Source of the DNA: an uncultured Elusimicrobia bacterium
GTDB lineage: Bacteria > Elusimicrobiota > Elusimicrobia > Elusimicrobiales > UBA9959
Reading direction: 5' to 3'
DNA length: 37,791 bases
NCBI GenBank assembly: GCA_903873295.1
Contig: CAIQNV010000044.1
Location: 1-37,791 of the forward strand
The notes beneath the pieces were generated by a model. It was not told the origin of the DNA and did not search any database. It saw nothing but the letters and a program-made list of their open reading frames with translations. Both the position numbers and the translations under genes were made by a program. This document shows positions 19,824-37,009 of the stretch, piece after piece (the first letter of the stretch is position 1; the number at the start of each line of letters is the position of its first letter).

Positions 19824-19879
19824 ATAGTGTACCAGACCGACCGCCTGCTTACTAACCCCTAAGTATCCCCGAAATATAC
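19824..19879 (-). promoter_or_regulatory. Triple 11-bp-phased activator array plus -10 (TPR-SEDS-M3 operon)
   Basis: On the minus strand the -10-like box GTACACTAT is at 19832-19824. Direct 8-mers lie 17, 28 and 39 bp upstream of it: GGTTAGTA (19857-19850), GGATACTT (19868-19861) and GTATATTT (19879-19872). There is no TTGACA at -35. The box is 61 bp from the ATG at 19762. Confidence 0.8.
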
Positions 19880-19892
19880 CTTCCCTCTTAGC

Positions 19893-20654
19893 TTAATGAA
19901 CCCGAACCGCGGTGTTCGCCAATAACCGGTTGGGATTATTTTTAAGCGCGGGATTAAGGCGCATAAGCTGCGAGAAGCTTATTTTATTCGCCAGCGCGAT
20001 CCCCATAGCTGACTGACCAGGAGCGACACGCACCTTAACAGCCGCCGATGGATTTTTTTTAGCAGACCGCGCTCCTTTCAGGGTCCTTCCCGTCTTCATA
20101 TTTATATTCTTTGCCGCCCCCAGGCCGGCTATTTCCTTACGTCTGGTCTTCATGGCCTGCATTGTCCGGAGCAATCCCGCCCGCTGCTTTCGTATAAGCT
20201 GCCGCTGCGCCGTTAAATGGCGCCGGAATTCTACCACCCGTGCCTTGAAATTTTTGATCCGCTTTGATTTCTCCGCGTCTTTACTACCCGCCAGCTTGCT
20301 GCTCTGCTCCTCTTCTATGCGGGCCAGTTGCGCGTCGGCTCGCTTGAGCTGTTCTTCCGCGGCCTCCAGCGTTACCCCGACGCTTTTATAGCCTGAGTAC
20401 AATTCGTCTATCACTTTAAGCAGCTCCTCCAGCTCGGCGGTAAAATTCTCGTGCGCCCTGAGCGCCGGCGCACCGCTTTCCTTTATCCGAAGGCTTGCAG
20501 CCAAGCGCCTGCCGGCGGCGGCGGCTCCTTGGAAAGCGTTTCTGTAGCGGGTCATTATTGTCTTCTCCGGGTAGCGCTGTAATTCCGCATTGGCGCACAA
20601 GGACGGCAGGCCTCCCAGGAAAAAACTTATCAGGATGATCGCCGTATATTTCAT
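19893..20654 (-). CDS. Secreted coiled-coil protein with C-terminal LysM-like domain
   Basis: A 253-residue exported protein. The signal peptide (about 1-23, ending CANAE) is followed by a long Lys/Glu/Arg-rich helical region (about 65-175, likely coiled coil), a basic linker, and a C-terminal LysM-like domain (about 206-253: VRVAPGQSAMGIALANKISF, then SQLMRLNPAL and NRLLANTAVRVH). LysM binds N-acetylglucosamine polymers, so the protein probably anchors to peptidoglycan. It starts 5 nt after the 20660 gene and belongs to that operon. Confidence 0.8.
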   Translation of the reverse strand: MKYTAIILISFFLGGLPSLCANAELQRYPEKTIMTRYRNAFQGAAAAGRRLAASLRIKESGAPALRAHENFTAELEELLKVIDELYSGYKSVGVTLEAAEEQLKRADAQLARIEEEQSSKLAGSKDAEKSKRIKNFKARVVEFRRHLTAQRQLIRKQRAGLLRTMQAMKTRRKEIAGLGAAKNINMKTGRTLKGARSAKKNPSAAVKVRVAPGQSAMGIALANKISFSQLMRLNPALKNNPNRLLANTAVRVH

Positions 20655-20659
20655 AACCG

Positions 20660-21175
20660 TTACCTTTGCCTCGTTTTAAGCGCGCCTGTACCCAGCATTA
20701 TCTGCATTTCGTACCAAAGACGAGCCTGTTCCTTATAATTGCAGCCCAGCGCGACAAACGCTTTTGCCCGCCTAATCTCACCCTGCGAGGAAGACGGCCT
20801 AACTGTATCTCCGGACGCGAGTACAGCCTCTATCGCCTCTACGCTGCTACGTACCACTTCATAGCGCCGCAGCATGGAACAAAGCCGCTCTTCCACTATC
20901 CAAGGCGACTTCTTGTTTGACGCGCCCTTGCAGGCTTGTTTCATCAGCATTAGATCCATCAAAGCCAAGTCCTGCTGTCTCTTTTCAAACTCATCAGGCA
21001 TCTCACCGTTACGTAAAAACTCCTCAACGGTCGCATTCATGACTGGATCAGATGAATTTACCTGTTCCATAGTCCAATCGCCCCCTAATGCACCCGCCTG
21101 CACAACCTCGACGGTGACGCAGACAGCCGCTGAAAGCAAAGACGCCGCCGCTATCAGTATCAAATATTTAATCAT
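20660..21175 (-). CDS. Secreted hypothetical protein, Cys-containing
   Basis: I do not recognise this 171-residue protein. It begins with a signal peptide (MIKYLILIAAASLLSAAVCV) and continues as a helical, charged domain with three spaced cysteines (KQACK, RLCSM, LGCNY). It is the first gene of a two-gene operon with the LysM protein 5 nt downstream, so the two may act together at the cell wall. The AGGAGG ribosome site is strong. The promoter is the array at 21229-21284. Confidence 0.75.
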   Translation of the reverse strand: MIKYLILIAAASLLSAAVCVTVEVVQAGALGGDWTMEQVNSSDPVMNATVEEFLRNGEMPDEFEKRQQDLALMDLMLMKQACKGASNKKSPWIVEERLCSMLRRYEVVRSSVEAIEAVLASGDTVRPSSSQGEIRRAKAFVALGCNYKEQARLWYEMQIMLGTGALKTRQR

Positions 21176-21228
21176 AGGTTCTCCTCCTGTCCGTCCTTGT
21201 TTAGCCGCCGAGTATCTGTGCCATAGTA

Positions 21229-21284
21229 ATGTTGTAGCACACCGTGACGGCGAGTTAAATGACAGCTTTATCCGGAAAGTATCC
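21229..21284 (-). promoter_or_regulatory. Triple 11-bp-phased activator array plus -10 (LysM operon)
   Basis: The -10-like box CTACAACAT is at 21237-21229. The 17-bp site is weak (TCATTTAA, 21262-21255). The 28- and 39-bp sites are strong: GGATAAAG (21273-21266) and GGATACTT (21284-21277). The box is 53 bp from the ATG at 21175. Confidence 0.7.
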
Positions 21285-21318
21285 TGATATTTAAAAATAT
21301 GATTTTTAATTTATAGTC

Positions 21319-21423: not shown

Positions 21424-21431
21424 ATAAAATA

Positions 21432-22460
21432 TTAAGGCTTGAGCTTGTCTTGCGCCCGCGTCTCGCGCCGCGCAGCCGCAGTACTCTTTATACTTTTCAT
21501 GCCATTCAGCGCACTCCTGATCTCGATACGCGCCTCATTAACCTCATGAAGATATGACTTGGTAACCGCATCGAATGTTCTTTTTAACTCCTCAAAGCCA
21601 TCTATTGTTCCCTTTAATTTTACTTCCATATCCCGCAGTCGGTCCTCATACGTCCAGGCCGGCCGGTCTTCTTCTAATTCCACCGGCGACGCTTTGCAGA
21701 CTATCTCGGTCGTTTCGGGATTCACCAAAGCCCGCAGACACCTCACCGCCGGCGACCCCTCTCCGGTTATCAGGCCCCAAACCCGTCCATCCGTGGCCTT
21801 CCGGACAGCGCTGTTGATATCGTCGGTGGCTCTGCCGCAAATGCTTTTGGACCAGAACGGCCCTGACCACTCGTTGGGAGTCCTCAGGCACCAGGTCAGC
21901 ACCTGGGAAGCGGCCCCGCCGCCCACGGAGGTGCATTCATACCTTTCCTTCCCTCTCTGGAGAGTCAGCAAAGTTACGCCCAGGGACCAGTAGACGCGCC
22001 ATTTCTCATTATCATAATCCTCGATAATAGCCTCGCTGATGTTGCGCAGGTAATCCGACTTCTTATCAAGCTCGTCTTTAGAAACGAATTCCACCACATT
22101 AGGCTGGGCCCCGAAGGTGCTTTCCTTCCTGCCTACCACAGTCAGCCCGATTATCCGTATATCCTTCCTGTCTTTAGCTTTATAGAGGTCTTTGGCTATC
22201 CAGGGTCCCTGTATTCGCCCTTTGTTGAAATTCAGTTCATGGTCGAGCAGGACGAGCGCCACACGATTCTCTGTGTCCTTGTTTATGATGTCGTTGTATT
22301 TGGCAAGTGTCTTGACGAACACGAGGTCATATTTGTTTTTAGTGCTGCTGTAAATTTCACGGAGCTTTTGCTCCAGCGTTTGCTTCGAGGCCTCGCCGTA
22401 CGCCTCGTCGTAGTGATCGTCTACGCACAGGATCATTTTAGGTTCATTGTTGGTTTTCAT
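21432..22460 (-). CDS. Receiver-domain protein with unknown C-terminal domain
   Basis: A 342-residue cytoplasmic protein. The N-terminal about 135 residues form a response-regulator receiver with the full residue set: an Asp-Asp pair in LCVDDHYDE, the phospho-acceptor Asp in LVLLDHELNF, Thr in IIGLTVVG and Lys in EFVSKDEL. The remaining about 200 residues are not recognised and end in a helical, coiled-coil-like, basic tail; no helix-turn-helix is evident. I chose the ATG at 22460 (AGGAG 5 nt upstream) over the TTG at 22475. It is last in the five-gene operon starting at 24843 and is a candidate signal-input component for the regulon. Confidence 0.75.
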   Translation of the reverse strand: MKTNNEPKMILCVDDHYDEAYGEASKQTLEQKLREIYSSTKNKYDLVFVKTLAKYNDIINKDTENRVALVLLDHELNFNKGRIQGPWIAKDLYKAKDRKDIRIIGLTVVGRKESTFGAQPNVVEFVSKDELDKKSDYLRNISEAIIEDYDNEKWRVYWSLGVTLLTLQRGKERYECTSVGGGAASQVLTWCLRTPNEWSGPFWSKSICGRATDDINSAVRKATDGRVWGLITGEGSPAVRCLRALVNPETTEIVCKASPVELEEDRPAWTYEDRLRDMEVKLKGTIDGFEELKRTFDAVTKSYLHEVNEARIEIRSALNGMKSIKSTAAARRETRAQDKLKP

Positions 22461-22471
22461 ATGTGCTCCTA

Positions 22472-23140
22472 TCAAGCCCGGCTGTCAGGATTCTTCTCAT
22501 CAAGAAAGTCTTCGCACATGCGCCGCAATCCGAATGCTTTCTCTTTCCATTTCGTCGCGGGCAGCGAGTTGATTCCGGCCTTAAGCTCTTCCGCGTTCTC
22601 TGTTCGGCCTTTTTGTATTAAATAATCGTAGACTTCGTTCAGCCTGCCTAGGATCTCACTCCTGGATAATTTAGTGCCGGGACTATAATGCAGCCTCCTG
22701 AACCGCAGATACTTCTTTTCGTTAGCGTAACAATTGTTTATATACGCCAAGTCCGTTACAGGCTCAAGCTTGAGGAGTAGGCCGTTCAATTCGCCTAGTA
22801 AAAAAGGAATAGTCCTGTAGGCGTGAGAGTAAGCGGCCGGCTCGTCTTCCACCCCGTTAAAGGCGGGCTGTTCCTTCCCGAAATCCTCCATTTTCGGGAA
22901 GCCCAGCACGACAACAGGGTTCTCCCGCTTACGCCTGATCTTCCCCCAGATTATCTGTTCCAGCAGCAATTCATCCTTGACCAGGAGCACCACCGCCACT
23001 TCAGGCGCCAGGCCCGTTGGCATCTGCAAATCATAGGCAGCGGTCATCGGCTTTCTCTTTTGTTCGTGGCCGAATACGGCCAGCGCGCGGGCCAGCGCGG
23101 CCGCTGTTTCAGTATCGTCGGAGATTATTAGTGTTTCCAT
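22472..23140 (-). CDS. Pseudo-receiver-like cytoplasmic protein
   Basis: The 222 residues begin METLIISDDTETAAALARAL, which fits the first strand and helix of a receiver domain, and continue with VAVVLLVKDELLLEQ and NPVVVLGFP strands. The expected phospho-acceptor Asp is missing. The C-terminal about 100 residues are helical and basic and do not show a clear winged-helix signature. The length matches OmpR-type regulators, so a degenerate regulator is possible but unproven. I chose the ATG at 23140; no Shine-Dalgarno is evident. Its stop lies 11 nt before the next receiver gene. Confidence 0.65.
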   Translation of the reverse strand: METLIISDDTETAAALARALAVFGHEQKRKPMTAAYDLQMPTGLAPEVAVVLLVKDELLLEQIIWGKIRRKRENPVVVLGFPKMEDFGKEQPAFNGVEDEPAAYSHAYRTIPFLLGELNGLLLKLEPVTDLAYINNCYANEKKYLRFRRLHYSPGTKLSRSEILGRLNEVYDYLIQKGRTENAEELKAGINSLPATKWKEKAFGLRRMCEDFLDEKNPDSRA

Positions 23141-23223
23141 TTGTAGTTGATACTCAAATATATTAAATAACGCCGGCGGCCACAATCATTATTACTTTGA
23201 GGTTCCTCGCCCCCGCAGGTTCT

Positions 23224-23550
23224 CTATTTGGTGCCCTCCGCGGCCCTCGCCTGGTCGTCCGCCTCGTATACGCCCATGACATTGATGAAGGTATCCTCAG
23301 GCCCGGCCTCGGCGGCGGGTGTTGCGGCAGCAGCCGCGTCCTGCACGGGCGCCGCGGGCACCGTCTCAGCGCTTACTGGCGGCGGAGGCAGGTCCTCGTC
23401 GCTTGCCCCGGGCGCAGCGACAGGCGACGACGCGGCTGGTACTGCCTGCAGCCTGGCGGCCAAAGCCGCCAGCTCAGCCTGACCGGCCGGTGTGCCTATA
23501 TATACCCAGGCCGCGAACACCGCGATAGCGCCTATAATTAATTTAGTCAT
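23224..23550 (-). CDS. Small membrane-anchored protein with conserved C-terminal motif (paralogue 1)
   Basis: A 108-residue protein with one N-terminal hydrophobic helix (LIIGAIAVFAAWVYIG), an Ala/Pro-rich linker and a C-terminal motif AEAGPEDTFINVMGVYEADD. The same motif ends the 129-residue protein at 34352-34741 (AEAGPDDTFERVMDIYDKD). The layout suggests an inner-membrane anchor that presents a short binding peptide. CGGAGG lies just before the ATG. It is third in the operon starting at 24843. Confidence 0.75.
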   Translation of the reverse strand: MTKLIIGAIAVFAAWVYIGTPAGQAELAALAARLQAVPAASSPVAAPGASDEDLPPPPVSAETVPAAPVQDAAAAATPAAEAGPEDTFINVMGVYEADDQARAAEGTK

Positions 23551-23594
23551 AATAGCCTCCGGAGAGTGATATCGACATTATCAGCGCAGCGTCC

Positions 23595-24491
23595 TTATGG
23601 CCTCCCGAATTCGCGAATATCGTCTTCGATAGGCCTTTCCACTGCGACGGCACCGGCCTGGCCGGCCGCGCCGCCGCTCAGCAGCTGTGAGTAGTCCGGG
23701 CCAGGAGTGAAGAGCTGGTCGGAGCCGCCCTTTGCCCCACCGCTGATCTGGGGCAGAACCAGTTCTATAGTGTGTTTTAATATAGCGCCGGTGTTCATAG
23801 CGTCCTTTATATCCGTCTCGATGAGGGCCAGGTCGACAAGGCCGTTAACTTCTTCCATATACCCAAGCAGCCCTTCTATACTGGCGGTCGCCCCTTCCAG
23901 CTTCTTTCCGGCTTCCTGCAGGTGCTTTTCCATACCCTGCTTGCGCTTAAGCTGGTCGATATAGGAGCCGAACTGCTTCCTCTGTTCCGGGGTGAGCCCC
24001 AGCCTGGCCGCGTCGGCCAAAGCCCCCGCCGTCTCAGCCTGCCGAGCGAGATCCTTCGCCATAGCCGCTTTCGTTCCTTCCAGCTGGGCCTGCGCGCCGG
24101 CCAGCTGCCCGGGCCCGACCAGGGCTAAGGCCGCCATCGCTTTGGAAGAATGCTCTTTATAAGCCTTTAGCTGAACTTTCTGACTCCGTGAAATATTCCG
24201 GAGCTCTACGAGATTCTTGGCCCTCTTGATTTCTTTTTTAGAATAGGGCAGGTCGGTGAAATCCTGTGAGTAAAATTCTGCGAAAATCTCGTTTTCGCGT
24301 TTCCGGGAGGACAGGTAATCTCCGTAAATCTTCCCGGCGGTCTTCGTGTGCAGCGCCACCGCGGTCATAGGCGGCAGCTCCACGCTGCTGTCGACCGTGC
24401 TCGCGAACAGCGCGGGGGCCGGGAGCAGCGCGGGGGCCGGGAGCAGTAAGAACACGGCGAAAATGAGCTGGAAGATTTCTTTATTTTTCAT
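23595..24491 (-). CDS. Secreted helical protein (paralogue of the 32161 gene product)
   Basis: A 298-residue exported protein of unknown function. The signal peptide contains an 18-bp in-frame tandem repeat (24408-24443) giving LLPAPALLPAPA. After cleavage comes the segment SSVELPPMTAVALHTKTAGK, then DYLSSRKRENEIFAEF, shared with the 226-residue protein at 32161-32841. The rest is mostly alpha-helical, rich in Ala, Lys and Gln (about 80-250), with a Gly-rich tail. It starts 4 nt after the lipoprotein gene and is second in that operon. Confidence 0.75.
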   Translation of the reverse strand: MKNKEIFQLIFAVFLLLPAPALLPAPALFASTVDSSVELPPMTAVALHTKTAGKIYGDYLSSRKRENEIFAEFYSQDFTDLPYSKKEIKRAKNLVELRNISRSQKVQLKAYKEHSSKAMAALALVGPGQLAGAQAQLEGTKAAMAKDLARQAETAGALADAARLGLTPEQRKQFGSYIDQLKRKQGMEKHLQEAGKKLEGATASIEGLLGYMEEVNGLVDLALIETDIKDAMNTGAILKHTIELVLPQISGGAKGGSDQLFTPGPDYSQLLSGGAAGQAGAVAVERPIEDDIREFGRP

Positions 24492-24495
24492 AAGA

Positions 24496-24843
24496 TTACC
24501 TCTTCAAGAGCGACTTCGTTATTTCCGAATCGGCGCACGCGCCTTCCAGAATGTCGCTCCTCCCCTCTGAAAGGGCGAGCGGGCACAAAGTGAGTTTCAC
24601 TAAAGCGGCAGATTTTTTGTCGGGGCTTTTGCCCGTAAGGTCGAGGAGTCCGTCGAGCACAGCGTTGCGCGCGTCCGCCGTGCCGGCTGTCACGTAGTCG
24701 CCCTTGAGCTGCTTGTAAGTGCTGGCCCAGCGCGGCCCGCCCAGGCGGTTATCTGCGAGGTTGCGATGGCCGGCGCAGCCGCCGAAGAATACCAGCGCAG
24801 TCAGCATCAGACAAGTTTCGGTTATGGTGGTCAGGGTTTTCAT
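24496..24843 (-). CDS. Small lipoprotein (paralogue 1)
   Basis: A 115-residue lipoprotein with a type II signal peptide and lipobox FFGGC-AG, so Cys22 or a near neighbour is the lipidated residue. The mature part is conserved with the protein at 35020-35370: AGTADARNAVLDG, LSEGRSDILEGACADSEITK and SLLKR. It contains two further cysteines (LTLCPLAL, EGACADS) that could pair. No known family is recognised. It is the first gene of a five-gene operon behind the array at 24868-24923. Confidence 0.82.
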   Translation of the reverse strand: MKTLTTITETCLMLTALVFFGGCAGHRNLADNRLGGPRWASTYKQLKGDYVTAGTADARNAVLDGLLDLTGKSPDKKSAALVKLTLCPLALSEGRSDILEGACADSEITKSLLKR

Positions 24844-24867: not shown

Positions 24868-24923
24868 ATAGTCTACATCCGCCCCTTCTGATAAAGTATC
24901 GTCTATTTATACTTTTGTTATAC
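24868..24923 (-). promoter_or_regulatory. Triple 11-bp-phased activator array plus -10 (lipoprotein 1 operon)
   Basis: The -10-like box GTAGACTAT is at 24876-24868. Upstream sites are CGATACTT (24901-24894, 17 bp), GTATAAAT (24912-24905, 28 bp) and GTATAACA (24923-24916, 39 bp). The box is 24 bp from the ATG, the shortest leader in the set. Confidence 0.78.
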
Positions 24924-26064: not shown

Positions 26065-26120
26065 ATAGTCTACCTGACCCGCCTCCGATCTTCTATTCCT
26101 TAACCCTCCGATAAGTATCC
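26065..26120 (-). promoter_or_regulatory. Triple 11-bp-phased activator array plus -10 (TPR paralogue 2)
   Basis: The -10-like box GTAGACTAT is at 26073-26065. Sites are GAATAGAA (26098-26091, 17 bp), GGAGGGTT (26109-26102, 28 bp) and GGATACTT (26120-26113, 39 bp). The box is 42 bp from the ATG at 26022. Confidence 0.78.
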
Positions 26121-26469: not shown

Positions 26470-26525
26470 ATAGTTTAGTGCAGAACCCCGTGAGTTACTA
26501 TCCGACGAATATACCGAAAGTCTCC
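26470..26525 (-). promoter_or_regulatory. Triple 11-bp-phased activator array plus -10 (70-residue gene)
   Basis: The -10-like box CTAAACTAT is at 26478-26470. Sites are GGATAGTA (26503-26496, 17 bp), GTATATTC (26514-26507, 28 bp) and GGAGACTT (26525-26518, 39 bp). The box is 48 bp from the ATG at 26421. Confidence 0.78.
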
Positions 26526-27238: not shown

Positions 27239-28585
27239 TTATCTCTTCCTTCCTACATAGCCTCCCCAGTCCCAATCATCGATCGTGTCGAGCGTGCCGT
27301 ACCGGTGCCCTAAGTGAATCGCTCCGTACGCTTTTATCCCGAAGATGTTTCCCTTAGTGTCTATCATGTACTTGCCCGAACTTCCTATGTCGACCTTCGT
27401 GTACTTTTTTCCGTTTTTTATTCTCGTTGTCGCATCTTTAATATTAGCGTCACATCCATGTCCTTCTGCTCTTAGCTGCGCTATCGTCTGCTCCTGCACC
27501 ATCTTCGCGAAACGTTCTATTTTCTCCTTCATGCAGCCCCCCTGATTCTCAACATGACGATCCGCTGCCCGCCTGTGCCGCAGGAATTCTATGGCGCCCT
27601 GTAAGTCCTGAACGTTTAACCAGCCGCCCGGATGAGCCAGGTCTTTTAAATCGCGGTCCGCATGGACAAGCAGGCTGGTGAACCCTACATAGCCTGTCAT
27701 CCACTCCGGCAAAGGGTCGCTCCCGCGCCTGGCTCCGAACCCGGCCACTTCGTGAAAGCTGTCGCTGATAAAGGCGACCTCTCCTGGTTCAAAAGGCATT
27801 TTAAGCGCCTGCCTCAGCCGTTCAAGAAAGTCAGGGTGCGGTTTCTCCTGGTGGACATCTACCGAGCTGATCATAATAATATCGTCCGCTATCCCTGCAG
27901 GGCGAAGAAGTTGCCTTAAAGCCTCTCCATCTTTGCCCGCATCGCTCATAATAACTAAAGGCCAACCACTCGAGCGCCCGAACGAGATTAATCCCTGGGC
28001 TTCCAAAGAAATATCACGAGGCATCGAGGCGAATTCACGCATGATATCCCTCAAGGCCTTTAGCCCCTCTTGTGAGCAGGTCGCCAGGGCTTGACGGGCA
28101 AAAGCCTCGATGGCCGCCCCGCTGTCGCCTTTACCGATGAAGAGGCCGCCATTAATGTTCTCCCGCCAGGCTGCCTTCCACTCGTCATCACCGACCACCG
28201 CCACGCCTTGTTTTTCCAGCCGTGTTCGAATACCGCGCATACCGAGGCCGCCCTCCTGTTCTACCTGCGTAACCAGGCAGGCAAGCGACGACTGCAACTG
28301 CGTGTATTCTTTCCGTTCCGATCCCGGCATCAGACTCGCTACCATTTTGTCTAGCGCCGCCCGGAGCAGCAACGGGTCGACACATTTTATGCCGCGCGCG
28401 TAGAGCGGCCGCACTTCACGTTTCCAAATATCCCAGAACGCGGGGTAAGCGGGTTGCTTGCTCCCGGCTGGCATCTTACGGCACCACTCCTGGAATGTCT
28501 GCTCGAGCCGGGGTGTCCCGTCCATCCACCTGTCCAATACCCCGCCAATGTCCAGTGCTAAAATTTTTATGCGGTGCTCATTCAT
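27239..28585 (-). CDS. HAD-like hydrolase fused to a small phage-like C-terminal domain
   Basis: A 448-residue protein in two parts. Residues about 6-340 are HAD-like: motif I ALDIGGVLD (nucleophile Asp12, with the second Asp replaced by Gly as in other DxGGV subfamilies), motif II VIMSDAG, motif III Lys in EKPHPDF and motif IV FISDSFHE. Residues 352-448 form a separate domain with KVDIGSSGKYMIDTKGNIFG and YGTLDTIDDWDWGGY, resembling small proteins I recall from phages. A Met at 352 (27532) follows a G-rich stretch and could start the domain separately. I chose the ATG at 28585 (GGAAGGGGG upstream). It is 77 nt downstream of the 28663 gene. Confidence 0.75.
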   Translation of the reverse strand: MNEHRIKILALDIGGVLDRWMDGTPRLEQTFQEWCRKMPAGSKQPAYPAFWDIWKREVRPLYARGIKCVDPLLLRAALDKMVASLMPGSERKEYTQLQSSLACLVTQVEQEGGLGMRGIRTRLEKQGVAVVGDDEWKAAWRENINGGLFIGKGDSGAAIEAFARQALATCSQEGLKALRDIMREFASMPRDISLEAQGLISFGRSSGWPLVIMSDAGKDGEALRQLLRPAGIADDIIMISSVDVHQEKPHPDFLERLRQALKMPFEPGEVAFISDSFHEVAGFGARRGSDPLPEWMTGYVGFTSLLVHADRDLKDLAHPGGWLNVQDLQGAIEFLRHRRAADRHVENQGGCMKEKIERFAKMVQEQTIAQLRAEGHGCDANIKDATTRIKNGKKYTKVDIGSSGKYMIDTKGNIFGIKAYGAIHLGHRYGTLDTIDDWDWGGYVGRKR

Positions 28586-28662
28586 AATCACATCCCCCTT
28601 CCTATCGATGCATTCCTCTTCTCTATAAACAGAACGCTTACACTTCTCCCCTCTCCTCTGAT

Positions 28663-29037: not shown

Positions 29038-29093
29038 ATAGTATACCTGCCCGAATTCATAACAGCTATCCGTAAGGAATACCATAAGTATCC
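29038..29093 (-). promoter_or_regulatory. Triple 11-bp-phased activator array plus -10 (28663/HAD unit)
   Basis: The -10-like box GTATACTAT is at 29046-29038. Sites are GGATAGCT (29071-29064, 17 bp), GTATTCCT (29082-29075, 28 bp) and GGATACTT (29093-29086, 39 bp). The box is 27 bp from the ATG at 29010. Confidence 0.8.
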
Positions 29094-29115: not shown

Positions 29116-30477
29116 TTACACCTTCCACTGGAAGGTCCCCCACCACCAGGTTGCGGCCGACGCGCCGCGCCGGCCGAAGAGGACCGCTCGCGGGCGCAGG
29201 GACTTCTGCCGGGCTACTTTCTGCATTTCGGGCGAAAGCGAAGACTCGCCGTCCGTAAAGACCACAAAATCCTGGCAGCGCTGTTTGAGGGCGTGAGCGA
29301 ACACGCAGTCAAAGTCCGTCCCTCCGCCATAGAACAGGTGACTGTTGATCGCCTCCACTGCGGGTAGTGGATTAACATAGGTATTGAAAGTCCATAAGGT
29401 AACCGGGAGCAAGTCCCGCAACCCCTTGATCAGGTCCACCACCACCCCGAGATGGGAACCCATGCTGCCGGACACATCCAGATAGATCCCCAAAGGCCGG
29501 CACGGCAGCGGCTCCTTGTTGTGGTGGTAGACCAGGTTCGGCCAGCCACAGGCCTGCCGCATCAGTTCGGCCCGGGTAGGACGGAGCAGGTACGGGAGCC
29601 TCAAAGAGTCGTTTAACAAATTCCCGGCAACCTGCGTGAGACACATGGACTGCCTGTCCCGGCTTTCCTGCCGGCTCAGCCAGTCTTTAAGAGAGGCCTT
29701 CCTGGAAGCAGCCTGCTCCTGGGGTTTAATCAACGCCTGTGCCAGCCAGGTATCCGCTCCAGCCCCTTTGCCTCCCGTGCCCGCGCCGGCGCTCAACTCC
29801 TCGCGCAGCGGCTCCGGCAAAGGCAGCATGTCGCCCGGGTCCGGCAGTTCATGCGGCCATAAACTTTCAGTACCATAATCGCCCATAGCTATGATGCGCT
29901 GCTCCCCCTGCGATTCCGAAATATTATTGAACAGTGGGAATATATGCTGATAGCAAGCCTCGGGCGAAGGCGGAACCTGCGACCGCCAGATCTGCCGCCA
30001 CGCCTTTACATGGCTTTCCGGCATCCTCTTGAGCGGCGGGTCAGCCATTACCAGCAAAGGCAGGCTTTTTAATTCTGAGAGCGTGCCTTCTCCTGGCAGG
30101 TCCGCGAGCATAAGGCGCTTATTCAATTCGTGCAGGAAAGGACCGCAGGTCCCCTTCGCCAGGATCCATTCCAAAGAAATATCGAAAGCAAGGTTCACCG
30201 CTTCCTTATGCGGATAGAAACGGAGATGGTGCAGCTGATTGTAGCCGAGGTGATGGTAGAGCTCGTGCATGATAAGGGCTTTTAACTGCGGCTCAGGCAG
30301 CTCCTCGCACAGGCCGCGGTTGACGTGTATCTCCACGGTACGCCGGGTCTCATTATAAACCCAGCAGGCGGTAGAAAAGGAATCGCTGCAGCGCAGCAGG
30401 ATACCCGCGAAAATAGCGTCCAGCCCCAGCGAGGCCGCCACCTGCTGCAAGCGTCTCCAGGGAGTACCAGGCGCCAT
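29116..30477 (-). CDS. Metallopeptidase-VWA protein (DUF2201-like)
   Basis: A 453-residue cytoplasmic protein in two parts. The N-terminal domain has a zinc-protease motif HELYHH (His71, Glu72, His75). The C-terminal domain (about 325-453) is von Willebrand A-like with a complete MIDAS: DVSGS (334-338), Thr387 in GGGTDFD and Asp409 in FTDGE. This matches the DUF2201 putative-metallopeptidase/VWA family, whose members usually sit beside a MoxR-type AAA ATPase. None is seen here; the partner is a HEAT-like protein gene ending 1 nt upstream. I chose the ATG at 30477 because GGAGG lies 6 nt before it. Confidence 0.85.
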   Translation of the reverse strand: MAPGTPWRRLQQVAASLGLDAIFAGILLRCSDSFSTACWVYNETRRTVEIHVNRGLCEELPEPQLKALIMHELYHHLGYNQLHHLRFYPHKEAVNLAFDISLEWILAKGTCGPFLHELNKRLMLADLPGEGTLSELKSLPLLVMADPPLKRMPESHVKAWRQIWRSQVPPSPEACYQHIFPLFNNISESQGEQRIIAMGDYGTESLWPHELPDPGDMLPLPEPLREELSAGAGTGGKGAGADTWLAQALIKPQEQAASRKASLKDWLSRQESRDRQSMCLTQVAGNLLNDSLRLPYLLRPTRAELMRQACGWPNLVYHHNKEPLPCRPLGIYLDVSGSMGSHLGVVVDLIKGLRDLLPVTLWTFNTYVNPLPAVEAINSHLFYGGGTDFDCVFAHALKQRCQDFVVFTDGESSLSPEMQKVARQKSLRPRAVLFGRRGASAATWWWGTFQWKV

Positions 30478-30478
30478 A

Positions 30479-32164
30479 TCAGACCTCCGCCAGCCCCTGC
30501 CGGAGGAACGGCAAGGCACTGGCAGGGAGCTCTACCGCAAAGGCTTCCGCTAAAGAGAACGGCGCGGAACGGGAGAGATCGGAATCCGGCCTCTCTGTTT
30601 TAGTCCTGGCCACGAACCAGTGCGGCCCCCCTTTGCGTTTAGTGGTATCGCTGCACACCTGCTCGAGCCAGGGCAGAAGCGGCGCGAAGTCAGCGGCCGC
30701 CATGGGCTTCATAAAAAACAGGAAGCGCAGGCTGATCTCCGAAGTACGGCAGATCACCAGCACAGTAGGCGCAGGCGCTGCCGCTTTACCCTCGCGAGGC
30801 AGCTCGGCCAGCAGATATTCCTTTTTCAACGCCTGCCTCAAGGCCTTCTCCATTACCGGAGTTATCTGGCCGTCGTACGCCTGCTGTATTTTCTCAAGAC
30901 GCAGGGCCGGCGGCGGCAGCAGTTCCTCGCGCCACTCCGCGAAAGCCTCGAGCATTTTCGATTGCGACGCGTTCTTCAGCCACACCTCTGCCAGGCCCGC
31001 GAGTTCCGGATCCCCTGGCGCGGCCTTTACCGCGTCTACCATACTGTTAGCGGCGTCACCGCAGGTAAGTAGTTTATCTATCTCTTCCCGTGAGAGTTTG
31101 AATTCCGCGCGGCGCTCGAAGATCTTCCCTGTTAAAGCCCCCGGCTCGCAGCAGGACCCGTTATGCCGGCGCGGCCACGCATGCTTCTTCAATAAAGACA
31201 CGAGCTCCGGCTTAAGCCTGGCGGGGAAAGCATATTTGCTTGTTTCGAACAGCACCTCGTGCAGCTCGTAATACCACCTCTCATAGGGCCCGGGCCCCGG
31301 ACTATTCTCGCCGGCAAGGCACTTAACAAGCGCCTCCAGGAACGCTTTCTCTTTGTCTTCACCGGCCGCTTCCAGCACAGGCCAAAGCGGTTCCCAAACC
31401 TCAGCGCTATGCTGCTTCTCGACCCAGGCCGGCATCTTGAGACAAAAATAATCGGCTAATTCCCGGGCTGTGCTTCCGAGCTGAAGCAAACCGTCAAGAA
31501 GCATGCGAAAAGTGTACACATTGCAGATATTGATCAGGTAGGGCAGCAGGCGCTGCGCCGCCTGCCGTTTATTGAATTTCTGAGCGCGGCAGATCCGGAG
31601 GCACATTTCGGCAGCCGCCTGGCTTCCCTGCTTCAGTTCACAGCAGAGATTATTCCAATCCAGGTTCGGAGCCGCGCTCCTGAGCTGTAGCAGGGCGAAA
31701 TTGGAATAAAAGTTGAGAACTCCCTGGCGAAGCAGTTGCACCCATAACTCGGTTCCCTGAAGCGCGGCCTGCACGAGCCGAAGGAAATCGTCATCCGCGT
31801 AAGTGACCGAAGCTAAGAATGCCGAAACCTCCTTATTGTTCAGTAAGCCTCCCGGCGCTATGTTCATACGGCCCAGAGATTTAACGGCGGCCTGCCGCAC
31901 TTCCACATCAGCTGTATTCACTGCCTTCAGTATGGCGCAAGCTGCCCGGGGATCGTTCGGCTCGAGATGTTTTCCTATTACCTTTAGCATTCTCACCTTG
32001 TTCTCATTATGGTATTGATAATAGTTTATACCGAACATTGCCACGACCGTATCTATAACACCTGCATTTTCCGCCCGGTCCAGAACCTCAAGAAACAGCA
32101 AGGCACTTACTTCCTTGAGGTGATCATGCCCCTGCAGGCAGGCGAGCGCTTCATCCTTAGTCAT
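30479..32164 (-). CDS. HEAT-repeat-like helical protein
   Basis: The 561 residues are almost entirely alpha-helical. HEAT-like units are clearest near residues 70-110 (CAILKAVNTADVEVRQAAVK followed by SLGRMN). No catalytic motif is evident. Its ATG overlaps the stop of the 32161 gene (ATGA) and its stop lies 1 nt before the metallopeptidase-VWA start, so it probably forms a complex with that protein. It occupies the place usually held by a MoxR ATPase in DUF2201 operons; whether it replaces that role is speculation. Confidence 0.65.
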   Translation of the reverse strand: MTKDEALACLQGHDHLKEVSALLFLEVLDRAENAGVIDTVVAMFGINYYQYHNENKVRMLKVIGKHLEPNDPRAACAILKAVNTADVEVRQAAVKSLGRMNIAPGGLLNNKEVSAFLASVTYADDDFLRLVQAALQGTELWVQLLRQGVLNFYSNFALLQLRSAAPNLDWNNLCCELKQGSQAAAEMCLRICRAQKFNKRQAAQRLLPYLINICNVYTFRMLLDGLLQLGSTARELADYFCLKMPAWVEKQHSAEVWEPLWPVLEAAGEDKEKAFLEALVKCLAGENSPGPGPYERWYYELHEVLFETSKYAFPARLKPELVSLLKKHAWPRRHNGSCCEPGALTGKIFERRAEFKLSREEIDKLLTCGDAANSMVDAVKAAPGDPELAGLAEVWLKNASQSKMLEAFAEWREELLPPPALRLEKIQQAYDGQITPVMEKALRQALKKEYLLAELPREGKAAAPAPTVLVICRTSEISLRFLFFMKPMAAADFAPLLPWLEQVCSDTTKRKGGPHWFVARTKTERPDSDLSRSAPFSLAEAFAVELPASALPFLRQGLAEV

Positions 32165-32841
32165 GATTTCCCCCAGAGTTCCTGTCCCGGCGTCCATTGC
32201 TCGGTTTGCGCAGCTGTGTCCCGCAGGCTCTTGGCCAGGTTCTTGCGTGTAGTGGCCCGCTGCCTGGGTTTACCCTCGGTCGAGGTTATAAGCGTCTCGA
32301 GGCGGCTTTTCAGCATCTCTATCTCCAGCTCCGGGCGCACCTGCGGCAGCCGCGCGCAGACCTCCCACAGCCTGGCCGGAAGAGCCAGATCGTCAGACCC
32401 CATCGCGTCGCCCATAAGTCTGCGCACTTTAGCGTCCAGCTGAGGCCCGTATTCAGCCAGCAGGCCGGGCGTGCTCAGCAGGCCCTCCAGGCAACTGATG
32501 CGCCGTTCCAGGTCGCCGCTGTCCAGCCCCGATAGCGCGTCGAAATGCAGCTCTGTAAGCTCAGCGAAGATCTCGGCTTCGCGTCTCCTGAGAGCTAAGT
32601 AATCCGCGAAGTCTTTACCCGCCGTCTTGGTGGCCTGCAACGCGAGGGTCATCGGCGGGAGAGTCGTGCTGCTGTCGTATTCCGCCGCCCTGAGAGTCAG
32701 CGGGGGCGTGCGCTGCGAGCTGCTGCCGTCTTCCGCCGCACTAAGCGACCGCGCCAGCGGCAGGGCCAGCGGCACGGACAGCGACAGTGTCAGTGACAGC
32801 GAAACCATCGCGGAGAAAATGTTTTTAATTGTGTTTTTCAT
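32161..32841 (-). CDS. Secreted protein (paralogue of the 23595 gene product)
   Basis: A 226-residue exported protein of unknown function. The signal peptide (about 1-35) is rich in Ser and Leu. A mature N-terminal segment, SSTTLPPMTLALQATKTAGK then DYLALRRREAEIFAEL, matches the protein at 23595-24491; the C-terminal helical parts differ. It is first in a coupled three-gene operon with the HEAT-like and metallopeptidase-VWA genes, an odd pairing of an exported with two apparently cytoplasmic proteins. Confidence 0.75.
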   Translation of the reverse strand: MKNTIKNIFSAMVSLSLTLSLSVPLALPLARSLSAAEDGSSSQRTPPLTLRAAEYDSSTTLPPMTLALQATKTAGKDFADYLALRRREAEIFAELTELHFDALSGLDSGDLERRISCLEGLLSTPGLLAEYGPQLDAKVRRLMGDAMGSDDLALPARLWEVCARLPQVRPELEIEMLKSRLETLITSTEGKPRQRATTRKNLAKSLRDTAAQTEQWTPGQELWGKS

Positions 32842-32885: not shown

Positions 32886-32941
32886 ATAGTCTATATCGCC
32901 GCCTCTTTAAAAACTATCTTTTAGATATCCGGTACTTATCC
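32886..32941 (-). promoter_or_regulatory. Triple 11-bp-phased activator array plus -10 (HEAT/VWA operon)
   Basis: The -10-like box ATAGACTAT is at 32894-32886. All three sites are good: AGATAGTT (32919-32912, 17 bp), GGATATCT (32930-32923, 28 bp) and GGATAAGT (32941-32934, 39 bp). The box is 44 bp from the ATG at 32841. Confidence 0.82.
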
Positions 32942-32959: not shown

Positions 32960-33613
32960 TTATCTTGTCTGCCTTTTGCCCAGCGAGTTATGTATTTTAA
33001 CCACACTTTTCACATAGGAAATAAGTTTCGGCGGCAGCGGTTCGGATGCGTTCACATATTTATTCAGCGTACCGCGCCCGCCGTTATAAAGGCTTAGAAT
33101 AAGATGTTCACGCTGGTAGCCCATACGGGCCGCATAGGCCATGTCTTTTTGTGTCAGAGAAGCATAGCTGTCTCTGATATACATAGCCGCCGCCTCCAGA
33201 TTATTTTCAGGCAGCCAGGGATTTCCGCCAATTTTCCCGCTTCTCCTCATAAGGTCCCAGGTGGACGGAAGGATTTGCCCGAGGGAAAATTCCCCGGCCG
33301 CCCCCAGGCAACCTATTTTAAAACCGGATTCATGCCAAATAATAGATTCGAGAAGTCTTGGCGAGATGTTATATTTAAGCGCCTTGCGATAGGCCAGCGC
33401 GCGCAGTTGTTCCAGATTATAATCAGGCAGTATTTTCCTGACAGGCAGCCGTATAGCCGCTGCCTTCTCCGGGATACTATAGCCGAGAATCTCCCGGTAC
33501 CCGCCGGCGTCGGCCTCGGCATACACGTCAAGCGCGCTCCTTTCAGCCCGCGCCGCAAGCGGCAGCAGGAGAATAAAGAGCAGCGCAGTCGGGCAGCACT
33601 GGTTACGTGTCAT
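32960..33613 (-). CDS. Lytic transglycosylase (SLT domain)
   Basis: A 217-residue exported enzyme that cleaves peptidoglycan between MurNAc and GlcNAc. After the signal peptide (about 1-23) comes a short module ALDVYAEADAGGYRE, shared with the M23 protein at 36175. The SLT domain follows with catalytic Glu95 in IIWHESGFKIG, then GEFSLGQILPSTWD, and LILSLYNGGRGTLNKYV near the end. Its ATG overlaps the stop of the 33610 gene (ATGA), so the two are coupled. Length is compact for the family. Confidence 0.9.
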   Translation of the reverse strand: MTRNQCCPTALLFILLLPLAARAERSALDVYAEADAGGYREILGYSIPEKAAAIRLPVRKILPDYNLEQLRALAYRKALKYNISPRLLESIIWHESGFKIGCLGAAGEFSLGQILPSTWDLMRRSGKIGGNPWLPENNLEAAAMYIRDSYASLTQKDMAYAARMGYQREHLILSLYNGGRGTLNKYVNASEPLPPKLISYVKSVVKIHNSLGKRQTR

Positions 33614-34326
33614 GGCAATTCGCCCCCCGATTTAAAAATAGATTCACTCACCAAAACCCGCTTCTTTCCCTGCTTAGACACGGTATTATTTTTTGCCGCC
33701 TGCGGCGCGCGCAGGGCGTCGCCTGCCGCCGCCAGTTCAGCCAGAAACACGCTGCGATCCAGCTCTTTCAATAAGTTAGTAAGCGTGCCCCTCGATGCAC
33801 GCACTGCGGCATACGCGTCGGCTGCGGCGTCCTGGGTCGGGTTCACAGAATAGAAGAGGGCACCCATCTTAGAGATGTCCTCGAATTTAGACGCCGGCAG
33901 AGTAAGCGCCGTCTCCAGAGCCAAGACCTTCCCCCATTTTATAAGCCCCCTGTTATTCAGATATTCCTCTACGCGGCTCATTTCAGCTAGGGCCGTGTCC
34001 GGACCGGGCATCTCGCTTTCAGCCAGGTTTAATATCCCCTCCACATCTTTGCGGAGCGTTATAAGCGCGCGCTGTTCTTCGGCCAGGTATCTGACAAAAA
34101 CTGCCAGAAGCACTTCCCTCCGGGCGGCATTTTTGAGAGACGTCTCTGATATCACCAGAAAGACGCCGGACTCGGTATTAGAGGAAAGCTCTATATAATT
34201 TTCTATAGACTTGCTGAACGCGGCCGTGGCCGCGCCGAAACCGCTTTCGGTTTTCTGGTCCCCGGCAAAACCGCTTAAGGGGAAGAGGCAGGTGAGGGTC
34301 ATGAAGCCGATAATAATTTTTTTCAT
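33610..34326 (-). CDS. Secreted helical hypothetical protein
   Basis: A 238-residue exported protein, not recognised. The signal peptide MKKIIIGFMTLTCLFPLSGF ends near AGDQK. The mature protein is alpha-helical without cysteines. I chose the ATG at 34326 (TGGAG upstream) rather than the one four codons earlier. It is coupled by ATGA to the lytic transglycosylase gene, which suggests a role with that enzyme, and it follows the 34352 gene by 25 nt. Confidence 0.72.
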   Translation of the reverse strand: MKKIIIGFMTLTCLFPLSGFAGDQKTESGFGAATAAFSKSIENYIELSSNTESGVFLVISETSLKNAARREVLLAVFVRYLAEEQRALITLRKDVEGILNLAESEMPGPDTALAEMSRVEEYLNNRGLIKWGKVLALETALTLPASKFEDISKMGALFYSVNPTQDAAADAYAAVRASRGTLTNLLKELDRSVFLAELAAAGDALRAPQAAKNNTVSKQGKKRVLVSESIFKSGGELP

Positions 34327-34351
34327 AATAATCTCCATATATACCGAACAT

Positions 34352-34741
34352 TTATCCCGGCTGGTTATAGCGCTGGGCTCTCTCGCGGTCCTGCTCTTTC
34401 ATGTCTTTATCATAAATATCCATAACGCGCTCAAAGGTGTCGTCAGGCCCGGCTTCGGCCGCGACGGGCGGCGGCTCTTCTTTGGGCGCCGCAAGATCCG
34501 CTTCGCTGTTTAAGGGCGGCGCGGGGAGTTCCTCCTCGCTGAGCTTCGGCAAAGCGGTGGAAGCGACGACTGCCGGAGCTGTCTGCAGTAAAGAGATACA
34601 GGACTTAAACGTAGCTTTACACCACGGGGAATTAATAAAGATCACCGCGCTTAGGAGCGTTATAACAACTAGAACCAATCTGGCCAGGACTACCTCCAGT
34701 ATGATCTTTCCAATTACTCCGAAGATACCATTAAGTGACAT
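34352..34741 (-). CDS. Small membrane-anchored protein with conserved C-terminal motif (paralogue 2)
   Basis: A 129-residue protein with one long N-terminal hydrophobic segment (about 8-37), a Pro/Ala/Glu-rich linker and the C-terminal motif AEAGPDDTFERVMDIYDKD, shared with the 108-residue protein at 23224. AGGAGG precedes the ATG. It is first in an operon with the 33610 gene and the lytic transglycosylase gene, behind the array at 34775-34830. Confidence 0.75.
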   Translation of the reverse strand: MSLNGIFGVIGKIILEVVLARLVLVVITLLSAVIFINSPWCKATFKSCISLLQTAPAVVASTALPKLSEEELPAPPLNSEADLAAPKEEPPPVAAEAGPDDTFERVMDIYDKDMKEQDRERAQRYNQPG

Positions 34742-35015
34742 AATAACCTCCTGGACGATTTACTCCCGACGCTGATAGTCTACACTCTACACTTGAAACA
34801 AAGTATCCTGAAAACAACCCGGGATTATACCTGCCGCGCATGACCACCTGAATCTTAAGGCTTTGCATATTGGTTAAGTTGCTCCTCTTTAACTCCGCAG
34901 AATTGACAAGGCTAATCTTCCGCGATACGCCGCTTTGAGTGCCGATATTAAGCGCAGACGACAGGGACTGGAAGACCACGACTAAAGTGACCCGCGAGAT
35001 TTCTTTGCTTACCAT
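34731..35015 (-). CDS. Doubtful small ORF spanning a promoter
   Basis: A 94-codon frame beginning MVSKEISRVTLVVVFQSLSS with AGAGG upstream, 4 nt after the lipoprotein gene. The first about 60 residues could be a real small protein. The rest runs through the promoter array at 34775-34830 and overlaps the next start codon, so it may be a decayed gene that has been overwritten by the promoter. No family is recognised. Confidence 0.35.
   Translation of the reverse strand: MVSKEISRVTLVVVFQSLSSALNIGTQSGVSRKISLVNSAELKRSNLTNMQSLKIQVVMRGRYNPGLFSGYFVSSVECRLSASGVNRPGGYYVT
34775..34830 (-). promoter_or_regulatory. Triple 11-bp-phased activator array plus -10 (transglycosylase operon)
   Basis: The -10-like box GTAGACTAT is at 34783-34775. 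Sites are GGATACTT (34808-34801, 17 bp), GGTTGTTT (34819-34812, 28 bp) and GTATAATC (34830-34823, 39 bp). The box is 33 bp from the ATG at 34741. Confidence 0.8.
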
Positions 35016-35019
35016 TAAG

Positions 35020-35419: not shown

Positions 35420-35475
35420 ATAGTCTACACTGCAAAGCCCGATTGTTCTATGTTCAAACTATCATGAAACTCTCC
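35420..35475 (-). promoter_or_regulatory. Triple 11-bp-phased activator array plus -10 (lipoprotein 2)
   Basis: The -10-like box GTAGACTAT is at 35428-35420. Sites are weaker: ACATAGAA (35453-35446, 17 bp), TGATAGTT (35464-35457, 28 bp) and GGAGAGTT (35475-35468, 39 bp). The two upstream sites overlap the last codons of the 35462 gene. The box is 49 bp from the ATG at 35370. Confidence 0.68.
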
Positions 35476-35992
35476 CTGCGCCCGCCCCAGGCCGCCCTGA
35501 GGATAAACCGGCAACCATAGACTCTGCTGCATTAGCTTCGCCGCTTATGTTTGACCAAAAGGCGTCTACATGTAAAAATAACTCACGCCCGATGGTAAAA
35601 TAATTGCCAGCGAGTGTCTTCTCCACCGCCTCATTAAGCGAACTACAGCCCGCACAAGCGTGAATAAGTGCCAAGGCCGCTAAAAACCTGCCAAATACGG
35701 CCGCTGTCGCCGGAGTCATAGCGGTTTGCAGACAGATCCGGCGGAGAAGTGCATTATTGCCGGCGTGAAGGCTGTGCACCACCCGGCCTGCCGCGGGGAC
35801 CAGCTCAGGAATGTTATGCCCCGCCGTCTGCAGGTGGAACGACATAGTTTTAAGTGCGGAAGCGAGAAACTCTCCCGCAGTCAGCGCCAAGACCGGCCTA
35901 GGCAGAGCTTTAACAACAGGAACAGAACCTGCTAATGCCACCATTGCGAGATCAGTTCTGTGATTCATAATCAATTGATTTATCGTATCCAT
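35462..35992 (-). CDS. Hypothetical Ala/Leu-rich protein
   Basis: A 176-residue protein, not recognised. It is helical, with two moderately hydrophobic segments (AMVALAGSVPVVKALPRPVL and FLAALALIHACAGC), and has a Gly/Ala-rich tail. There is no clear signal peptide; weak membrane association is possible. AAGAGGA precedes the ATG at 35992, and the gene has its own regulon promoter. The 3' end overlaps the promoter of the next gene. Confidence 0.6.
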   Translation of the reverse strand: MDTINQLIMNHRTDLAMVALAGSVPVVKALPRPVLALTAGEFLASALKTMSFHLQTAGHNIPELVPAAGRVVHSLHAGNNALLRRICLQTAMTPATAAVFGRFLAALALIHACAGCSSLNEAVEKTLAGNYFTIGRELFLHVDAFWSNISGEANAAESMVAGLSSGRPGAGAGRVS

Positions 35993-36029
35993 AGTTTCCT
36001 CTTTTAAGAAAATGTTTTGTGCGCCAGCT

Positions 36030-36085
36030 ATGTTTTAACACACTGCAACAAAACATAAAATACCGGAAGTATCCGTGAATTATAC
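36030..36085 (-). promoter_or_regulatory. Triple 11-bp-phased activator array plus -10 (35462 gene)
   Basis: The -10-like box is divergent (TTAAAACAT, 36038-36030) but stands in register. Sites are GTATTTTA (36063-36056, 17 bp), GGATACTT (36074-36067, 28 bp) and GTATAATT (36085-36078, 39 bp). The box is 37 bp from the ATG at 35992. Confidence 0.68.
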
Positions 36086-36174
36086 GAACGGAAAATATAT
36101 CAAGACAGATAACAAGGAAATCACGGGGAGAAAACACAAAATTACGGAGGGACAACTTTATTACTGGCCTTCAG

Positions 36175-36912
36175 CTAATAACTGCCTGTCATCTTGGCTA
36201 AAGGATTAACTGATTCTCCCGATGGCGAGATTATTTCAAAATGCAGATGAGGGCCGGTGGACATGCCGGTGGACCCGACACGCCCCAACATGTTTTTGGA
36301 TTTCTCTATTGTCTTACCGATTCTAACCGACACTGCGGACAAGTGGCCGTAGCGAGTAAGAGAACCGTCGTAGTGGCGCATCTCAACTGTATACCCATAA
36401 CCGCCCTTCCAACCTGCAAACGTGACTATGCCCGGTTTGGCTGAATAGACTGGCGTACCGTAGGGCATGGGAATATCGCACCCATTATGAAAGATCATCC
36501 GCTTCAACAGCGGGTGGTAGCGCATACCAAAGCTGGAACTGATCCTGGAATAATTCAGCAACGGCATGCGGTAGGCGTCCTGGCTCCGGTAGCCCGCCGA
36601 CTGTTTTTCCCGATAGTCATTGTTAAATTTGTGGAGTGTGTGTGTAGGGATAGTCACCCGTTTTATAACAATTTTCTTTATGGGTGTTATTTGCCGCGCG
36701 TACACCTCCGCAGGAGAAGCTTCACGATAGGCGGCTTCATCTGCTGCGTATATATCCAAGGCCGTAATATCGTCTCCCCGGCACTGAGCAGGCGACACTA
36801 GAAGCCCGGAGACAGCGACAAAGGCTACTATACACAGCATGCCCCGCCCGGCCGATAATCTAGCCTTAATGACCGCCGGTGCGCCGTGCTTTATCGTTAT
36901 GCGCTTCTTCAT
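36175..36912 (-). CDS. M23 (LytM-type) peptidoglycan endopeptidase
   Basis: A 245-residue exported zinc endopeptidase that cuts peptidoglycan cross-bridges. A long signal segment (about 1-45, ending AQCRG) is followed by ALDIYAADEAAYRE, a module shared with the lytic transglycosylase at 32960. The M23 domain (about 120-245) has its zinc ligands in HNGCD (His142, Asp146) and HLH (His222, His224), plus His190 in RYGHLS. All are intact, so it is probably active. It is monocistronic behind the array at 36954-37009. Confidence 0.92.
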   Translation of the reverse strand: MKKRITIKHGAPAVIKARLSAGRGMLCIVAFVAVSGLLVSPAQCRGDDITALDIYAADEAAYREASPAEVYARQITPIKKIVIKRVTIPTHTLHKFNNDYREKQSAGYRSQDAYRMPLLNYSRISSSFGMRYHPLLKRMIFHNGCDIPMPYGTPVYSAKPGIVTFAGWKGGYGYTVEMRHYDGSLTRYGHLSAVSVRIGKTIEKSKNMLGRVGSTGMSTGPHLHFEIISPSGESVNPLAKMTGSY

Positions 36913-36953
36913 ATAGGCTTGACCTCTGTTTTTTACTTTATACCGCTCTGATT

Positions 36954-37009
36954 ATTGTATAGCAGACCCCAGCCGCGGAACACATCCCGGAAGAATCCGG
37001 TAATTATCC
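36954..37009 (-). promoter_or_regulatory. Triple 11-bp-phased activator array plus -10 (M23 gene)
   Basis: This is the clearest array. GGATAATT (37009-37002, 39 bp), GGATTCTT (36998-36991, 28 bp) and GGATGTGT (36987-36980, 17 bp) follow each other at exact 11-bp steps. The -10-like box CTATACAAT is at 36962-36954, 41 bp from the ATG at 36912. Confidence 0.85.

Follow-up and report, generated by a model that had tools for sequence, protein, structure and literature searches.

Eleven minus-strand promoters in a 37,791-nucleotide stretch of DNA from an uncultured Elusimicrobia bacterium share an array of three direct repeats that, genome-wide, is confined to one cluster of genes. The stretch, hereafter the window, is the whole of contig C44 in a draft genome of 3.49 Mb (157 contigs, 89.9% complete), whose gene content, with type IV pilin-like proteins among others, would suit the Elusimicrobiota. 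At every one of these promoters three GGATAnTT-like 8-mers follow one another with an exact 11-bp period and are followed, after 18 bp, by a −10 box of the form TAnACTAT. The tests described below confirm this observation with unusual clarity, and they support a shared, helically phased direct-repeat operator that would replace the −35 element and hence define one regulon. The repeats are almost certainly bound by one common control protein, and we consider it likely, from the design of the sites, that the eleven arrays are the operator of a single island-restricted positive regulator that recruits the housekeeping RNA polymerase.

Such an arrangement would offer, for an uncultured lineage, a regulon that is cleanly defined and computable, with one spaced motif marking the orphan genes that work together. 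Some 20 proteins, most of them without homologs, would become accessible to study as one system, and the region would illustrate one way of bringing the genes of an accessory island to joint expression, by combining a housekeeping −10 with a private operator. Apart from the interest of this private wiring of an orphan island, the eleven sites offer a ready bait for a regulator to which annotation cannot point.

Geometry and specificity of the arrays

A 58-bp segment comprising the three 8-mers and the −10 box aligns without gaps at all eleven promoters, which we name by the coordinate of the last T of the box (P19824 to P36954). Counted upstream from this T as position zero, the 8-mers begin at 55, 44 and 33 nt, so that 40, 29 and 18 bp separate them from TAnACTAT, with identical geometry throughout. 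The conserved blocks of the alignment run from −55 to −48, from −44 to −37, from −31 to −29 (with weak neighbours) and from −7 to 0; blocks one and two read GGATAnTT and block three nnATAnnA/T. All eleven −10 coordinates in the initial annotation proved correct, as did its 11-bp phase, but its spacings of 17, 28 and 39 bp were each one base short. A TAnACTAT-like box does stand before all eleven units, as had been claimed, with departures from that sequence at P21229 (TACAACAT), P36030 (TAAAACAT) and P36954 (TATACAAT); five of its positions (T, A, A, A and T) are the same in 11/11 arrays. Each array lies 24–61 nt upstream of a start codon on the same strand.

The exact 8-mer GGATACTT is present in six of the eleven promoters, distributed as originally described: in the distal slot of three (21229, 26065 and 29038), the middle slot of two (19824 and 36030) and the proximal slot of one (34775). 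No other copy occurs on either strand of the window. Matches to GGATACTT at six or more of the eight positions fill the distal slot at nine promoters and the middle and proximal slots at five each. Summed over all slots, 192 of 264 positions match the 8-mer, compared with 64.1 ± 6.9 for random placement (maximum 92 in 20,000 trials). Moving the register by 1–10 bases lowers the sum to 42–75, and a shift of 11 bases in either direction alone recovers it (153 and 138). The periodicity is also evident with no consensus assumed, since self-identity within the array promoters peaks at lags of 11 (0.43) and 22 (0.36) and stays at about 0.27 at every lag, with no peak, in 44 host promoters with a TAnA(A/C)TAT box.

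As a control for the matrix scans we used 688 kb of the same genome on both strands, or 1.38 million positions. Leave-one-out scores with the full matrix range from 18 to 39 bits, and no control position reaches any of the sites. A calibrated profile run against the entire draft retrieves exactly these eleven (E 5e-9 to 2e-5); the next-best match in the genome, at E 0.41, is a promoter of another kind. With the −10 left out, between 0 and 21 chance positions in the 1.38 Mb score as high as each site, and because the array-only matrix is this weak the claim of specificity rests on array and −10 jointly. An equal frequency of the motif inside genes, which had been named beforehand as the outcome that would speak against a regulon, was not obtained in the genome profile and matrix scans.

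In 58 genomes from the same family no profile match has an E value better than 0.003, and the matches inspected are other things: promoters of PorV-like genes in congener G030 and in the own genome, which carry a different array in a different register, and the leaders of a phosphatase-like gene (G010) and a SAM-synthetase-like gene (G026), named from their translations. A strict IUPAC pattern applied to 341 genomes of the phylum and to IMG/VR was uninformative, since the eleven sites themselves all fail to match it; a looser one found 14 stretches in IMG/VR, of which those inspected are plain tandem duplications without a −10 at the right distance. An Rfam scan returned a tRNA-Cys and nothing else, and a literature search for GGATACTT as an operator gave nothing relevant among the matches listed.

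Mean pairwise identity between the promoters is 66% over the slots and the −10, and falls to 27% in the 3-nt gaps, 32% in the 18-bp spacer and 25% in the 60 bp upstream. The contrast between slots and flanks holds also between promoters of paralogous genes, which argues that selection, and not recent copying of promoters, keeps the slots. One partial copy of the P29038 array, decayed and lacking a −10, lies on the minus strand at about 27140–27185, at the 3' end of a NUDIX gene.

Promoter architecture and the nature of the regulator

The −10 box is the general one of this host and does not distinguish the regulon. Across the 688 kb of host DNA, TAnACTAT shows a 5.5-fold enrichment upstream of genes, and at host promoters it stands 16 bp behind TTGACA-like boxes, as in TTGACA-N16-TATACTAT. 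No TTGACA-type promoter-like site overlaps any of the eleven arrays, in agreement with the earlier remark that such boxes are missing there. Since the −10 is of ordinary host type and elsewhere follows TTGACA, the array appears to replace the −35, and the generality of TAnACTAT makes it most likely that these promoters are served by the housekeeping RNA polymerase. The host −10 often reads TAnACT followed by AT and not TATAAT, and scans that expect TATAAT will overlook many of the promoters of this lineage.

Two known operator designs offer parallels. PHO boxes are built up from direct repeats of 11 nt, each with 7 conserved and 4 less conserved bases (PMC4415409). In the case of AfsR, the protein contacts 8 bp within every 11-bp repeat and engages sigma region 4, its box overlapping the −35 (PMC10936776). 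Like the PHO boxes of PhoB and PhoP, the arrays consist of tandem head-to-tail 11-nt units with 7–8 conserved positions, set beside a housekeeping −10 in the place of the −35; unit number and conservation vary, as in Streptomyces operators (PMC4415409). They differ in consensus (GGATAnTT, as against CTGTCAT or GTTCACC) and in having three units at all eleven promoters, at one fixed distance and confined to one island. With the SARP/AfsR boxes of Streptomyces they share the 11-bp repeat of 8 contacted and 3 free bases, the overlap with the −35, the occurrence of three repeats (found at some SARP promoters) and the service of the promoters of one gene cluster by one activator (PMC10936776, PMC10972967). 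In contrast to SARP promoters, where 8 bp separate the 3' repeat from the −10 (PMC10936776), the distance here is 18 bp in 11/11 cases, and the cluster is not recognisably biosynthetic. Because the 8-bp rule does not hold and no regulator gene was found, we propose a PHO-box- or SARP-like way of working and claim membership in neither class. A search of the cluster for a SARP gene, combining a winged helix-turn-helix (wHTH) with BTAD, gave no Trans_reg_C match; a TPR protein with a BTAD match (E 2.4e-6) was rejected as a SARP because it is exported and lacks a wHTH.

LytTR-type sites are 9-bp repeats spaced about 21–22 bp centre to centre with no unit between them, a pattern ruled out by the period of 11 and the unit in the middle slot. 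A single element-specific switch, worked by a dedicated activator, is also the arrangement at the middle and late promoters of phages and mobile elements, which the arrays would resemble in serving the operons of one element. In contrast to such elements, the island has no phage structural or integrase gene that could be identified with confidence; its M23 and SLT genes have matches among the lysis and tail families of PHROGs, but the enzymes are common in bacteria.

By analogy with the PHO-box and SARP designs, we suggest that a head-to-tail activator replaces the −35 and places the island under one signal. Three protomers, or a dimer plus one, would line up head-to-tail along the same face of the helix, and each would read the 8-bp GGATAnTT core within its 11-bp unit. 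The distal unit, usually the best conserved, would anchor or nucleate binding, and the degenerate proximal unit would overlap the expected place of the −35 hexamer, where sigma region 4 would sit. The bound activator could then substitute for the −35 contact and bring polymerase carrying the housekeeping sigma factor to TAnACTAT, with the result that a single signal would switch on the island operons, with their exported, cell-wall-active and orphan proteins, together. Both the binding of a protein at the arrays and activation by that protein we infer from the layout of the sites; its DNA-binding domain would, on balance, be a winged helix resembling that of OmpR and PhoB. The regulon itself is new, and its operator design is of an ordinary kind.

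Several points weigh against this proposal. The proximal slot is poorly conserved, and the 18-bp gap between the last repeat and the −10 exceeds the 8 bp of SARP promoters. No island protein matches a DNA-binding family, and no wHTH was recognised among them (Pfam, NCBIfam, PHROGs). Profile comparison did not match the 342/347-residue receiver-like protein of the island to the OmpR regulators of the genome, and a single-sequence model of its middle domain, of moderate quality (predicted local distance difference test, pLDDT, 64), matches no winged helix. Sites and regulator may also escape view, because the draft has a completeness of 89.9% and the contig stops at 37791. Of the original suggestion of an undescribed regulon under an OmpR/PhoB-type regulator, the regulon, with a phased direct-repeat operator confined to this cluster, has been borne out, but the assignment of the regulator to that type has not, as no wHTH protein was recognised in the island.

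The genome encodes eight OmpR-type (PF00486) regulators. None is on this contig and seven have orthologs (66–97%) among five congeners that yielded no arrays, so that none is an obvious regulator of the island; the regulator at C156:27384 is the sole one without a close ortholog in those congeners (best 55%). Within the island, the product of 21432–22475 shows by eye ILCVDD, VLLDHE, GLT and SK at the places of the acidic pair, acceptor Asp, Thr and Lys of a receiver, and that of 22472–23140 a degenerate version of these motifs; neither has a family, profile or fold match. The middle-domain model of the 347-residue protein has the order beta-beta-beta-alpha-alpha-beta-beta. We do not claim this protein as a hidden OmpR-type regulator, given the lack of profile support, a full-length model that is useless (pLDDT 38) and the lack of a winged-helix match. 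Candidate regulators are a receiver-like island protein and the C156 protein; alternatively, the gene may lie past the end of the contig or in the tenth of the genome that is not assembled.

Among the alternatives, the one with the most appreciable chance, though still a minor one, keeps the regulon and assigns it to an activator that binds direct repeats but belongs to an entirely different family from the winged-helix proteins of OmpR, PhoB and SARP type, perhaps one not yet described. The failure to recognise a wHTH gene in the island fits this idea, as does the presence of the two receiver-like orphans in the regulated P24868 operon, one with the receiver motifs; yet neither orphan shows sequence or fold evidence of DNA binding, and the 8+3 geometry of the 11-bp unit is that used by the OmpR fold. 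Somewhat less probable again is a private switch carried by an island whose proteins are nearly all orphans and mostly exported, with eleven three-site operators of the same geometry and a regulator, possibly these very orphans, from a family not yet described. If true, such a regulator would be encoded in an operon that it regulates, and the island would be a new kind of self-regulated unit. It is unlikely, to a slightly greater degree, that the island has evolved operators for a co-opted host OmpR-type response regulator that has other tasks in the cell as well. Eight such regulators are available, and at least two host promoters have their own 11-bp direct repeats before TAnACTAT, but host targets would then be expected, and the 3.49 Mb hold no further site; congeners with orthologs of seven of the eight likewise give no good array match.

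The direction of an effect cannot be read from sequence, and a dedicated repressor that coordinately silences a whole element is a common arrangement, so the arrays could be operators of an island repressor that, for example, silences a mobile element. A repressed promoter normally retains a usable −35, however, and none overlaps the arrays; the fixed 18 bp to the −10 at 11/11 promoters also suits contact with polymerase better than simple blocking, and we regard repression as quite improbable. An alternative or element-encoded sigma factor reading GGATACTT-TAnACTAT as a bipartite promoter would account for the almost invariant −10. We give this very little credence, since a regulon of that kind should have a −10 that differs from the host standard and TAnACTAT follows TTGACA in the host; moreover, it leaves the three phased repeats unexplained, and no sigma-like gene was recognised in the island. 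That the promoters are recent copies of one another, with repeats inherited without function, might be suggested by the richness of the island in paralogs and by the decayed P29038 copy near 27150, but is contradicted by flanks and gaps at chance identity beside slots that are not, and is barely credible.

Repeats of 11 bp also occur before TAnACTAT boxes elsewhere. In the own genome (G000:C4:22754–22802) and in congener G030 (C2:20944–20996), two copies of TTCGGGATT(T) end about 16 nt before TAnACTAT upstream of a PorV-like outer-membrane gene, and probably mark a host regulon that is conserved and similarly designed. On G000:C83, upstream of gene 1165–2121, the direct repeat TCTGAACTCCGTCTGAAGT precedes TAGACTAT near an OmpR-type regulator gene (3156–3848), and is possibly that regulator's own site.

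The island and its genes

The left 10–13 kb of the window is ordinary chromosome, with the ATP synthase operon among others. From about 13 kb the GC content drops from 60% to 54%, and the minus-strand genes there are mostly without a family. The arrays and the genes behind them are listed in Table 1.

Table 1. Arrays with their −10 boxes and downstream genes or operons, by position in the window. Repeats are given in the order distal, middle, proximal; E values of arrays are from the calibrated profile.
Feature	Position	Strand	Repeats	−10	E	Remarks
P36954 array	36954..37009	-	GGATAATT, GGATTCTT, GGATGTGT	TATACAAT	3.1e-8	precedes M23 peptidase gene
P36030 array	36030..36085	-	GTATAATT, GGATACTT, GTATTTTA	TAAAACAT	2.5e-7
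P35420 array	35420..35475	-	GGAGAGTT, TGATAGTT, ACATAGAA	TAGACTAT	3.5e-6
P34775 array	34775..34830	-	GTATAATC, GGTTGTTT, GGATACTT	TAGACTAT	6.8e-7
P32886 array	32886..32941	-	GGATAAGT, GGATATCT, AGATAGTT	TAGACTAT	5.2e-9
P29038 array	29038..29093	-	GGATACTT, GTATTCCT, GGATAGCT	TATACTAT	1.5e-8
P26470 array	26470..26525	-	GGAGACTT, GTATATTC, GGATAGTA	TAAACTAT	1.2e-6
P26065 array	26065..26120	-	GGATACTT, GGAGGGTT, GAATAGAA	TAGACTAT	8.4e-9
P24868 array	24868..24923	-	GTATAACA, GTATAAAT, CGATACTT	TAGACTAT	6.9e-7
P21229 array	21229..21284	-	GGATACTT, GGATAAAG, TCATTTAA	TACAACAT	2.2e-5	weakest of the 11
P19824 array	19824..19879	-	GTATATTT, GGATACTT, GGTTAGTA	TACACTAT	5.9e-9
Exported M23 peptidase, 245 residues	36175..36912	-			1.9e-29	Pfam PF01551; hydrophobic N-terminus
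Orphan protein, 176 residues	35462..35992	-				no family found
Orphan lipoprotein-like protein, 116 residues	35020..35370	-				paralog of 24496-24843, 57% identity
P34775 operon	32960..34741	-				membrane protein 34352-34741; exported protein 33610-34338; SLT lytic transglycosylase 32960-33613 (PF01464 E 3.1e-10); evidence includes N-termini
P32886 operon	29116..32841	-				exported protein 32161-32841; HEAT-repeat protein 30479-32197; VWA/metallopeptidase-like protein 29116-30519
P29038 operon	27239..29010	-				orphan 28663-29010; HAD-like protein 27239-28585 (PF00702 E 6.6e-9)
Orphan protein of P26470, 70 residues	26209..26421	-				no family found
Exported TPR protein of P26065	24946..26022	-				68% identical to TPR protein of P19824
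P24868 operon	21432..24843	-				lipoprotein-like 24496-24843; exported 23595-24491; membrane 23224-23550; receiver-like 22472-23140 and 21432-22475 (by eye only)
P21229 operon	19893..21175	-				exported orphan 20660-21175; exported LysM-like protein 19893-20654 (LysM E 0.0033, below cut-off)
Putative P19824 operon, from close packing	15699..19762	-				exported TPR protein 18662-19762; second FtsW/RodA paralog 17512-18603; M3 peptidase 15699-17522

Well over half of the island products have a hydrophobic export-type N-terminus, judged by simple hydropathy and not by a signal-peptide predictor, and we infer that the products form an envelope-associated machine. In the P32886 operon the HEAT-repeat assignment (HEAT_2, E 1.1e-5) falls just below the cut-off, and the VWA/metallopeptidase-like protein carries MIDAS-like DVSGSMG and HELYHH motifs, read by eye.

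The region looks like an acquired accessory island, as the gene set combines a divergent FtsW/RodA copy (about 33% identical to the chromosomal one), an exonuclease gene without a congener counterpart and orphans without convincing relatives. The exonuclease gene (RNase_T/DEDDh, 37099–37629) lies at the contig end, has no array, and finds no counterpart in 31 congeners at E 1e-20. The lipoproteins, the TPR N-termini and the receiver-like protein have no convincing relatives in 295–341 genomes of the phylum, and the VWA protein gives matches of just 25–29% in three family members among 101 relatives. So far as each was searched, the lipoprotein pair, the TPR N-terminus and the VWA, HEAT, HAD and receiver-like proteins are absent or remote in genomes of the same phylum, GTDB contigs, IMG/VR, plasmids and phages. 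The NUDIX gene mentioned above (26575–27174) lies within the island in the opposite (plus-strand) orientation and encodes a SMODS-associated NUDIX domain, of a defence-linked family, and the genes at 13768–15588 and 15699–17522 form a tandem pair of M3-family peptidase paralogs.

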